DNA of 64,000 nt from an uncultured Pseudomonadota bacterium (GTDB taxonomy: Bacteria; Myxococcota_A; UBA796; SXON01). The DNA lies in assembly GCA_903885375.1 (NCBI GenBank), contig CAISIK010000027.1, positions 1 through 64,000 on the forward strand, in the 5' to 3' direction. Of this stretch, positions 16,360 through 20,710 are shown in pieces. The notes beneath the pieces were generated by a model. It did not search any database. It was not told where the DNA came from and saw only the letters and a list, made by a program, of their open reading frames with translations. The position numbers were made by a program, and so were the translations under genes. Position 1 is the stretch's first letter, and the number at the start of each line of letters is the position of its first letter.

Positions 16360-17400
16360 ATGCCCCTGCTGCTCCTCGCGTGCGTCGGCTCCGGCCCGGC
16401 CGTCGGCGCCTCCGCGACCGAGCCGCCGGCCGATCGCGACTCCGGCGCGCCCGCGGACACCGCGGAGGACAGCGGCGCCGCCGCTATCCGCCCGCCCGGC
16501 GCCACGGTTCGCCTCGAGTTCGAAGCCGACGTCATCGGCGCCACCGTGGTGGTGACCCGACTCCACGAGGTGGACAGCTGGACCGCCTCCTTCGGTGAGG
16601 CCCTCACCAGTGCCACCGTTTCGGGCCCCACGATGGACCTTGCGCTCCCTGTCCCGGCCGTCTCGGACCTGACCACCGAGGCGGACGGGACCCAGGGCGT
16701 ACCCGGCGCGAAGTACCTGCTCACCGTGCATGACGACGGCGACGGCGACGGCGTCGTGGACGACGACGAGCCGGTTCTCGGGCACGGCACCGCCGAGCTC
16801 CTGTGGGCGGAGGCTCCCACGGGGGCGTTCGGCGGCGGATGGAACCACGTCGGCTTCGGAACGTCCTGCTATGCGCCGGGATTCGGCGTCCCGGCGCTGC
16901 CGGTGCACGTGTTTTCCACCGGCGACGATGCGATTGCCTGGACCAGCAGCGCCGCGCTCGAACGGGTCGATGCCCGGCTGGTTCTGTTCGACGAGGAAGC
17001 CGTCCGCGGGGACACGCCGGTGGGCGCGGAATTCACCATCGCCGCCTCGGGAACGCCGATCTCGCTCGAGCTGCCGCTCTTCCGTCCGGCGAGCGCCGCA
17101 GCCATCCTCGTGTACGGCGACCTCGACGCCAGTGGCAGCTGGTCGGCCGGTGACGAAACGATCGGCGGCGTGTGCGACCGCTCGGGCATGCAGGCCTTTG
17201 CGCTGTTTTCGGGCCTGCCGCTGGGGCTCGTCGAGACGTGGGCTGCGCTCGACTGGTACTGCTCCAGCGGGTACCTCCTGCCGCCGGGCTGGATCGTCGT
17301 CACCGCCCAGGATCCGCCCGAGATGCAGGGAGCGGCGGACTACTCGCCCGCGGAGGAGTACCTGACCATCGACCCGGCCTGCACACCCGACTGGATGTGA
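16360..17400 (+). CDS. Hypothetical lipoprotein, very short signal peptide
   Basis: MPLLLLACVGSG..., acidic tether RDSGAPADTAEDSG. Confidence 0.6.
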   Translation: MPLLLLACVGSGPAVGASATEPPADRDSGAPADTAEDSGAAAIRPPGATVRLEFEADVIGATVVVTRLHEVDSWTASFGEALTSATVSGPTMDLALPVPAVSDLTTEADGTQGVPGAKYLLTVHDDGDGDGVVDDDEPVLGHGTAELLWAEAPTGAFGGGWNHVGFGTSCYAPGFGVPALPVHVFSTGDDAIAWTSSAALERVDARLVLFDEEAVRGDTPVGAEFTIAASGTPISLELPLFRPASAAAILVYGDLDASGSWSAGDETIGGVCDRSGMQAFALFSGLPLGLVETWAALDWYCSSGYLLPPGWIVVTAQDPPEMQGAADYSPAEEYLTIDPACTPDWM

Positions 17401-17470
17401 GCCCGCATGTTCCGACGCCGGCGCCCCTCCTCCCTTGAGGCCTGCCCCCTCCGCGCGTTACCGGCACCCC

Positions 17471-18109
17471 ATGCTGCTCGTCAACACCGCTTCGGCCGCG
17501 TGGCTGGCCACCGTTTCCGGAATGGACGACCCCTGCTGCGCGCAGAAGGTGGTCACGGCGCTCCAGTCGGTGCCCGCCGTCACGGCGGTGGCCGCGAACT
17601 TCGAGGCCGGCCAGGCCTGCCTCCAAGCGTCGGTCCCGCTCACTTCGGGCGCGCTGGGCACGGCGTTGGCCTCCGCCGGCTACAGCCTCGTCAGCCTGGC
17701 CGAAGTGGAGGCCTGCCCCGCCGGAATGCAGCCCGCGGCCGACCCGTGGGCGGCGGCCAAGGGGCTCGATGTGGTCACGATCTCCCACGGTGCGCGGGTC
17801 GACCTCACCCCCGTGCAGGGGAAGTTCACCGTCTTCGACTTCGGCGCCCCGTGGTGCGCGCCCTGCCATACCGGCGCGGCCCTGCTCACCACGTACATGG
17901 GCAGCCACGCGGATGTGGCCGCGCGGGTCGTGTGGCTCGACGCGGGCGATGCCAAGGCCTCGTTCGCGCTGCCGGTCGTCACCCAGCACCTCGCCTTCGC
18001 CGAGGGCCTCCCCTGGTACAAGGTTGTCGGCCCGGACGGCAAGAAGCTCTACGAAGGGAGCGTGGCCAGCGCCGCGATCACGGCGATCGACCGCCGGCGG
18101 GCCCGGTGA
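17471..18109 (+). CDS. HMA/MerP-like plus thioredoxin-like protein
   Basis: VSGMDDPCCAQKVVTALQSVPAVTAVAANF; FTVFDFGAPWCAPCHTGAALL (CXXC). Confidence 0.65.
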   Translation: MLLVNTASAAWLATVSGMDDPCCAQKVVTALQSVPAVTAVAANFEAGQACLQASVPLTSGALGTALASAGYSLVSLAEVEACPAGMQPAADPWAAAKGLDVVTISHGARVDLTPVQGKFTVFDFGAPWCAPCHTGAALLTTYMGSHADVAARVVWLDAGDAKASFALPVVTQHLAFAEGLPWYKVVGPDGKKLYEGSVASAAITAIDRRRAR

Positions 18110-19155
18110 TGGCCACCGTCCGGACCCTCACGCTCCGCGCCGTCGTGGGCGCCATGCTCTACGCGATGATGGCGCCCGCCGCCCACGCCACGTGACCCGG
18201 TTGAAGCAACCCGAACCTCCAGGTTGGAGGCTCCCGCGCACAGCCGTACCTTGATGCCGGCCGGTTCCGGCTCGACACGCAGGCCATCTTCCAGGCCACC
18301 CGCATCCAGCACGTGGCCAACTGCCCCGAGGTGGACCCTCTCCTCTGCGCCACCACCGGGATTCCCGAGCACTGGCACGATCAGGCGATCACCTGGCTCC
18401 GCGTGGATGCGCTGCTCAGCGCGGGACTCGGCAAGGGGTGGGCCGTGGCTGCGGGCCTCCCGTTCGACGTTCGGGCCATCACAGTGGACTACACCCGCGA
18501 CGGTGAGCCCTACACACCGCCCTACGACGACATCCACCATAGGGACGAGGTCCTCCTCGGCCCGGTCGATGGGAGCCTCTGGCTGAAGCGGACGTGGATG
18601 GCCGGAAGTGTGGTGCTCACGCCCTCCGTGGGCAGCTCGCTCCCCATCGGGCACACCGAAGCCGACCCCTTCGCGCTCACCGAGGAGGGCAAGAAACACC
18701 AGCACATGCAGTTCGGTACGGGCACCTTCGATCCGCTCGTGAGCGTTGACGCGGTCGTTCGGGCCGGGCGGTTCGGCGCGCTGGCCACGGCGTCGTCGCG
18801 GCTCCCGATCCAGGAGGGGGCCAACGGCTACCGGGCGCCCCGCACGGTGGTGGTGAGCGTCGGGCCCACGTTCGCGGCCACCCCGAAGGTGTACACGTGG
18901 CTCCTCGCCGAAGGGGCGTACGAGGGCGAGGAGCTGTGGCACGGGGAGGCGTACGGCGGGCGGGCGTCGGTGTCGGCCTCGGCGGGCGCGCTCTACTCCG
19001 TGAACCACGACCTGTCCTTGCAGCTCACCGCGCGGGTGCCCGTCTGGGAGGCCGTGCACCACACCGACGAGGACGCATCGGTGTCCCAACCGCTCAGCGT
19101 GGCGGCGGGGGTGTCCTGGGCCTTCGGGAAGCGCGCGGTGGAAGAGGGCGAGTAG
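18109..19155 (+). CDS. Outer membrane beta-barrel/transporter-like protein interrupted by two in-frame TGA codons (candidate selenoprotein, otherwise pseudogene)
   Basis: Signal peptide MATVRTLTLRAVVGAMLYAMMAPAAHAT, then TGA (18193) P G TGA (18202) S N P N L Q..., same frame as the intact barrel ORF to 19155. Confidence 0.5.
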
Positions 19156-19192: not shown

Positions 19193-20710
19193 GTGCTTTC
19201 CCTTCTCCTCGCCTGTGAAACCGAGCCGGACGCTTCGGTTCCGCTGCATGTGGATGACGGGGTGGAGCTCGGCGAGGTTCTGGCGTGCGCCGACCCCGCG
19301 CCCGCCACCACCTACACCGAGGTCGGCGAGAGCTGGGGCTTGCAGGCGCCCCTCAACCGCTTCGACCAGCACGAGGAGAGTCCCAGCATCGCCACCGGAG
19401 ACATCGATGGCGACGGTCTGGATGACGTCGTCATCGTGAACTCCAACGGGAATTCGCACCAGTACCGGAGCACCGGCGCCGGTTTCGAGGTGGTGGACAT
19501 CAGCAAGCTCATCACCTCGAACCTCGGTATCCTCCTCTTTGACACGGACGGCGACGGGGACCTCGACCTGATGTTGGGGGGCGCAACCCCGCGCACCCTC
19601 ACCAACACCGCGGGAACGTTCAGCGCCGGCCCGGCCTTGCCGGTGCTCCCCGCCGAGACGGTCGGCGAAAACGTGATGGCGCACGAATTCGCGCCGGGCG
19701 ACCTCGACGGGGACGGCGTTTTGGAGTTCTACGTTCCGAGCACCTACAATTTCGATGACTTCGAGGTGCAGTTCAACGACATGATCCTGAAGGGAGGGGA
19801 GGATGTCTGGCAATATGATGTCGATACCGTGCCTCCCGCCGTGGGCGAGCGCCACGGGATGGACGCGCTCTGGTTCGACGCAGACGCGGACGGTGACCAG
19901 GACGTGTACGTCGTGAACGACTTCGGCATGCTTCAGGGGTCGAGCACGCTCCTGCGCAACGACGGCGGCGTGCTCACTTCCCTGGAGGAGAGCTGCTACT
20001 GCGCCGCCCTGTTCAACGCCAAGGGGGTGGACGTCGATGATTTTGACGGGGACGGTCGGGTGGACATCTACGTCAGCGCCAACCCCTTCAACACCCTGTT
20101 CCAGCAGCTCGCCGACGGCACATTCGTGGATGTGAGCACGTCGGTGAACGCCTGGGCGGTCGATGCAGACGCCACCGGCTGGGGCGGCATCTTCGTCGAC
20201 TTCGACAACGACGGTCAGCGTGACCTCTTCCCCGCGCAGGGCGACCGCTGGAACCCGGCGGTGGACCATCCCCGGGTCACCGTGCCGATGAAGCTCCTCC
20301 GTCAGGACGGGGGGTGGTTTTCCGACGTGGCGGGCGACCTCGGGCTGTCGGCCACGGGTTCCTTTCGGGCCGTGTCCGCGCTCGACCTCAACGCCGACGG
20401 CGTTGAGGATCTGCTGATCACCCAGATCGAGGACCGTCCGCAGCTGTACCTGTCCGACAGCTGCACCGAAGCCGGCTGGCTGGAGGTCGAGGCCCCCATC
20501 GGGAGCCGCGTCCAGGTCGAGGCGGGAGGTCGCACGCAAACCAACTGGGTGAAGACCGACGCCGGCTACCAGTCCCACCGCGCCCCGCGCGTGCACTTCG
20601 GGCTGGGGGAGGCGGAGACGATCGACCGGCTGACCGTTACCCTTCCTGACGGTCGGGCGCTGGCGGCCACGGGGATCGAGGCGCGGCGGCGCGTCGTGGT
20701 GCCGGGCTGA
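19193..20710 (+). CDS. FG-GAP/VCBS repeat protein with ASPIC/UnbV-like C-terminus (CRTAC1-like), lipoprotein
   Basis: GDIDGDGLDDVVIVN, DTDGDGDLDLMLGG, DLDGDGVLEFYV, DFDNDGQRDLFPA; C-term LEVEAPIGSRVQVEAGGRTQTNWV. Confidence 0.85.
   Translation: MLSLLLACETEPDASVPLHVDDGVELGEVLACADPAPATTYTEVGESWGLQAPLNRFDQHEESPSIATGDIDGDGLDDVVIVNSNGNSHQYRSTGAGFEVVDISKLITSNLGILLFDTDGDGDLDLMLGGATPRTLTNTAGTFSAGPALPVLPAETVGENVMAHEFAPGDLDGDGVLEFYVPSTYNFDDFEVQFNDMILKGGEDVWQYDVDTVPPAVGERHGMDALWFDADADGDQDVYVVNDFGMLQGSSTLLRNDGGVLTSLEESCYCAALFNAKGVDVDDFDGDGRVDIYVSANPFNTLFQQLADGTFVDVSTSVNAWAVDADATGWGGIFVDFDNDGQRDLFPAQGDRWNPAVDHPRVTVPMKLLRQDGGWFSDVAGDLGLSATGSFRAVSALDLNADGVEDLLITQIEDRPQLYLSDSCTEAGWLEVEAPIGSRVQVEAGGRTQTNWVKTDAGYQSHRAPRVHFGLGEAETIDRLTVTLPDGRALAATGIEARRRVVVPG

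Follow-up and report, generated by a model that had tools for sequence, protein, structure and literature searches.

The fdhF-type bSECIS of E. coli is a small hairpin located directly 3' of the UGA, with an 11-nt spacing to its stem and a GGU-containing loop. The published bSECIS model allows a stem of 4-16 bp, a loop of 3-9 nt with a G in its first two positions, a distance of 16-37 nt from the UGA and an energy <= -7.5 kcal/mol (PMC13188914). Selenoproteins with two selenocysteines (Sec) in a UxxU motif include a Prx-like oxidoreductase (PF00578), the metal-binding protein NF041115 and an FmdB-family protein. Outer-membrane selenoproteins are represented by the GSU2204 family (MtrB/PioB-like, NF041027) and by the FCYXU type of TonB-dependent receptor (NF049945), each harboring one Sec. 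Twelve-strand outer-membrane barrels are found in the COG4313 channel (PDB 4rl8), in FapF (PDB 5o65) and in PF13557-like proteins.

The locus described here lies in the window, i.e., the whole 64,000-nucleotide stretch that was analysed (Table 1). On comparative grounds, its barrel gene almost certainly encodes a selenoprotein: the TGA pair stands at the same place in near relatives, Sec and Cys exchange in homologues, a 3' hairpin covaries, the selenocysteine machinery is encoded in the genome, and SelB correlates with the Sec form. As in the preliminary description, a signal peptide and a barrel-like ORF share one frame split by TGA codons at exactly 18193 and 18202, after which the frame stays open to a TAG at 19153-19155. 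With both TGA codons read as Sec, the product is MATVRTLTLRAVVGAMLYAMMAPAAHAT-U-P-G-U-SNPNLQVGG.... Its ATG shares one base with the TGA of the upstream thioredoxin-like ORF (TGATG, 18107-18111), an overlap that had also been pointed out. A small-x-small motif immediately precedes the first Sec/Cys in 66 of 81 genes by pattern count, and Sec29 would be at or near the first mature residue, within about two residues of the mature N-terminus and ahead of the barrel.

Table 1. Features of the barrel gene and its partner in the window
Feature	Position	Strand	Basis and remarks
Partner gene, secreted HMA + thioredoxin-like protein, CAPC active site	17471..18109	+	Pfam; stop overlaps barrel start
Predicted selenoprotein gene	18109..19155	+	Translation, homologues, predicted structure; 348 aa with both TGA as Sec
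Signal peptide region	18109..18192	+	Sequence and pattern count over homologues; AHA motif immediately before T-U
First UGA, Sec29	18193..18195	+	Homologues (n=84): Sec 69, Cys 12
Second UGA, Sec32	18202..18204	+	Homologues (n=84): Sec 76, Cys 8
bSECIS hairpin CCUCCA-GGU-UGGAGG	18216..18230	+	Fixed codons in window type, covariation in other type, bSECIS rules

The protein had been described as an outer-membrane protein with UPGU after the signal peptide. The predicted model (pLDDT 87) agrees with this, displaying a 12-strand outer-membrane barrel, and refines the placement of the motif, which would lie ahead of the barrel, at or close to the start of the mature protein. In the model, UPGU is found in a low-confidence tail preceding the first strand (pLDDT <50), and its modelled position relative to the His residues or the lumen is therefore of equally low confidence. 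The closest structures are FapF (5o65) and the COG4313 channel (4rl8), with Z about 23 over 249-264 residues (4rl8_C: Z 22.9, 249 residues, 2.7 A). A sequence-profile search of the PDB returned nothing meaningful. PF13557 matches 4 of 60 family members at E <= 0.01 (best 6e-5) and not the window protein. Across 60 sequences, P35 and the two Sec/Cys columns do not vary at all, and His 68, 90, 143, 144, 197 and 199 hardly vary.

Homologues were searched in the window's own genome and in those of 57 relatives (58 in all), and are present in 20 of the relatives. Every full-length one carries the in-frame TGA pair in the same position and is free of internal TAA or TAG; the two matches devoid of TGA are partial and do not extend to the motif, and in one gene (L003) a third TGA is the natural stop. 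A scan of genome contigs yielded 80 loci from Myxococcota, Acidobacteriota, Planctomycetota and Poribacteria, phyla being taken from record titles. Two of the contigs (L048, L055) bear the name of Klebsiella pneumoniae MAGs in their titles, although the search tool assigns their genomes (G012, G014) to the same family as the window; the titles look mislabelled. Over 84 distinct genes, the motif reads UxxU in 69, CxxU in seven, CxxC in five and Cys at the second position only in three, the U1/C2 form being absent; Cys and Sec thus occupy exactly the two TGA positions, where the preliminary description had proposed to look for Cys. Two additional loci (L094, L104) read UPAU too, by eye. The pattern used to collect the 84 genes admits only Sec or Cys as its second residue, and the evidence for a lack of TAA/TAG therefore comes from the relatives and from a phylum-wide search of 377 genomes, in which strong matches carry two TGA, one or none, and never TAA or TAG. 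A tree built without the motif requires at least seven changes at the first position and at least three at the second.

The sequence CCTCC-AGGTT-GGAGG is found exactly where a bSECIS-like hairpin had been announced, its start 11 nt after the second TGA. It falls within the published limits, with two amendments to its earlier drawing: the stem gains an A-U pair, reaching 6 bp, and the loop is GGU, located 17 nt from UGA2 and 26 nt from UGA1. The region after UGA2 has an MFE of -9.6 to -10.4, and the folding energy of the hairpin taken alone is not unusual (z -0.46). The hairpin is supported by conservation and covariation, not by energy. Leu37 and Gly40 have third bases that are free at the protein level, and in the 35 genes of the Leu-Pro-Val-Gly type these bases pair in 35/35 cases (C-G 19, G-C 10, U-A 3, U-G 2, G-U 1); shuffling them gives 18.3 pairs on average, and 35 was reached in 0 of 20000 shuffles. 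Over the six-pair helix of 31 distinct sequences, which are related and hence not independent events, 97% of cells are paired and covariation scores 0.383, to be compared with 0.140 when shuffled and <=0.089 when the helix is slid. Complete switches from C-G to G-C and from C-G to U-A are included. In the 24 genes of the window type, the codons CTC and GGA are fixed, even though GGA accounts for 9% of their remaining Gly codons, and T is the third base of codon 39 in 23/24 versus 8%, thereby providing the A-U pair that closes the stem around the GGU loop; binomial figures for this bias ignore relatedness and are not usable as probabilities. The hairpin segment is lost in all five CxxC genes. 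An Rfam scan of the window gave no match at the gathering threshold. Poribacterial members L096, L102 and L107 (UGAUSNPAIPR) harbor, by inspection, another candidate hairpin of different sequence (AUUCCAC-GCG-GUGGGAU) in roughly the corresponding position. A second stem proposed to span the second TGA, GGTTG-AAG-CAACC, is present at 18199-18211 and is not conserved: it was rejected as part of the mechanism, being stem-compatible in 4/24 close and 6/35 other homologues, and its synonymous sites show no association.

The genome encodes the selenocysteine machinery for which a search had been suggested. SelA is found on the window's own contig (G000:C27:228504-229775), and the genome also has SelB, SelD (G000:C192:23599-24522) and a tRNA-Sec with anticodon TCA. 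SelD has its own in-frame TGA, and the genome therefore encodes at least one other selenoprotein. Among 22 genomes reached via the loci, of unstated completeness, SelB is above the cut-off in 14/14 with the Sec form versus 2/8 with the Cys form (Fisher p 4e-4, or 2e-3 counting a fragmented SelB in the genome of L091). One Sec-form relative (G026, 80% complete) yielded no tRNA-Sec above the cut-off.

The partner protein matches Pfam HMA above the cut-off (1.9e-6) and Thioredoxin weakly (0.013); its start is likelier the ATG at 17471 than the TTG at 17435 of the ORF list. A thioredoxin-like ORF is located immediately upstream in 49/84 loci and is absent from the sampled Planctomycetota, Poribacteria and Polyangium loci. 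It carries an HMA domain in the window, in Acidobacteriota and in others. Myxobacterial partners (L057, L062, L066, L067 and others) possess a Cys/His-rich segment, CEHxVPxxxCTRCNPxL...DWCxEHxVPESQCxxCHPDL, that has no Pfam match and resembles, in one weak match, a portion of a Planctomyces sp. SH-PL62 protein annotated as an RND efflux adaptor. About 17 more members exceed 420 aa and are apparently barrel-thioredoxin fusions. Of the six long members scanned against Pfam, all have a thioredoxin after the barrel and two (L079, L100) also a C-terminal cupredoxin (Cupredoxin_1); L087, L099, L113 and L114 probably share this fusion, judging by their common C-terminal ending. Some members have His-rich C-termini. 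The gene pair is flanked upstream by a secreted or lipoprotein-like ORF (16360-17400) without Pfam or NCBIfam match, and directly downstream, on the same strand, by an FG-GAP/VCBS repeat protein with an ASPIC/UnbV C-terminus (19193-20710).

Several other readings of the two UGAs have to be weighed. A pseudogene, an assembly error or two nonsense mutations would account for an otherwise open frame broken by two stops, at the first of which standard ORF calling ends (18195). The homologues already refute this reading, which retains practically no probability: the same TGA pair recurs in dozens of genomes from several phyla, cultured isolates among them, strong matches lack TAA/TAG, and substitutions in near relatives are mostly synonymous on either flank of the UGA pair, the 22-codon signal segment being short and weakly constrained in one pair of relatives. 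Two nonsense mutations or indels had been deemed less likely at the outset, which the same TGAs in every full-length homologue from the 57 relatives bear out. It is also highly improbable that the UGA is read as another amino acid or that translation restarts downstream, with no Sec involved. Downstream ATG/GTG/TTG starts do exist, e.g., GTG 18313, but a restart would cost the signal peptide, which is in one frame with the SNPNLQ segment, both being conserved on either side of the UGAs (SNPNLQ.GG immediately follows the second Sec in most relatives); moreover, Cys occupies both sites in other members, the SECIS covaries, and SelB correlates with the Sec form. A selenoprotein with efficient Sec decoding at UGA2 alone, UGA1 being weak or differently served, would fit the seven C1/U2 homologues found against no U1/C2, as well as the single conserved hairpin lying nearer to UGA2. 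This is unlikely, however, as 26 nt falls inside the bSECIS range of 16-37 nt (PMC13188914) and U1 is retained in 69/84 homologues. From its distances to the two codons, one bSECIS can serve both UGAs, and likely does.

In the preferred explanation, SelB and Sec-tRNA-Sec would decode both UGAs, directed by the bSECIS at 18216-18230. Signal-peptide cleavage would leave Sec-Pro-Gly-Sec at, or within a few residues of, the periplasmic N-terminus of the predicted 12-strand channel. The UxxU motif may act as a redox-switchable soft-metal ligand, held reduced by the co-encoded or fused thioredoxin, and may work together with the barrel's conserved His in handling a thiophilic metal at the outer membrane, copper being the likeliest. 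The upstream thioredoxin-like genes and the barrel-thioredoxin and barrel-thioredoxin-cupredoxin fusions give good support to the link with thiol reduction. The metal link is one of association, supported by the HMA domain on the thioredoxin, the cupredoxin fusions, the Cys/His-rich segment, the conserved His and the His-rich C-termini. The main rival, a real possibility though less likely than not, also has a selenoprotein, in which UxxU would be a thiol/selenol oxidoreductase or redox gate, fed by thioredoxin for disulfide exchange or peroxide reduction, with no metal. It draws on the mimicry of CxxC by UxxU and on thioredoxin being the most constant neighbour or fusion partner, but leaves aside that these thioredoxins repeatedly bear HMA, Cys/His-rich or cupredoxin parts and that His is conserved in the barrel. 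The metal-handling role itself is given a chance ranging from somewhat below even up to even, and for this reason the full explanation, a selenoprotein forming a thioredoxin-reduced soft-metal channel, is held at about even. More tentatively, and a little short of even, the system may be a selenium-dependent metal relay of the outer membrane, in which the metal-domain thioredoxin would both reduce a Sec-Pro-Gly-Sec N-terminus that loads or gates the channel and supply it with a soft metal such as copper, one SECIS serving two Sec.

The barrel proteins seem to form a selenoprotein family that is widespread and has so far gone undescribed, with its two Sec placed at the exported N-terminus. Members come from at least four phyla and usually occur next to a thioredoxin or fused to one, which in many cases bears a metal-binding domain. 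No Pfam or NCBIfam (release 20.0) model matches the barrel of the window. Across diverse members, NCBIfam (release 20.0) likewise gave no barrel match, thioredoxin-type matches being confined to the fusions and the partner; a few members show weak generic barrel matches. Current annotation probably cuts these genes short, since they lack a family model. None of the 119 prokaryotic selenoprotein families in a 2026 inventory fits by domain and motif, and the portions of text searched in the deep-Sep results and the dual-code paper contain no such family. Searches of the open literature for myxobacterial or myxococcotal selenoproteins returned no matching papers, and in the literature found, selenoproteins of the phyla carrying the barrel family are little covered. 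What looks like a protein motif, LPVGG/LQ.GG, is for the most part an RNA element that the CxxC homologues have lost, and it illustrates cleanly how a SECIS can shape the sequence of a protein. Carriers in culture, among them Archangium violaceum and Polyangium fumosum, make 75Se and metal tests direct.

Compared with the described systems, the other UxxU selenoproteins (PF00578, NF041115, FmdB family) have different domains, and their NCBIfam models do not match the barrel family. The GSU2204 family and the FCYXU type are likewise located in the outer membrane, but with one Sec, other motifs and other domains, and without NCBIfam match to the barrel family. The COG4313 channel, FapF and PF13557-like proteins share the 12-strand barrel with the predicted model of the window protein when compared by fold, the identity to the first two being just 10-12%. 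Finally, the window hairpin resembles the E. coli fdhF-type bSECIS in its 11-nt spacing to the stem and its GGU-containing loop, and differs from it in being a single element in reach of two UGAs 9 nt apart.
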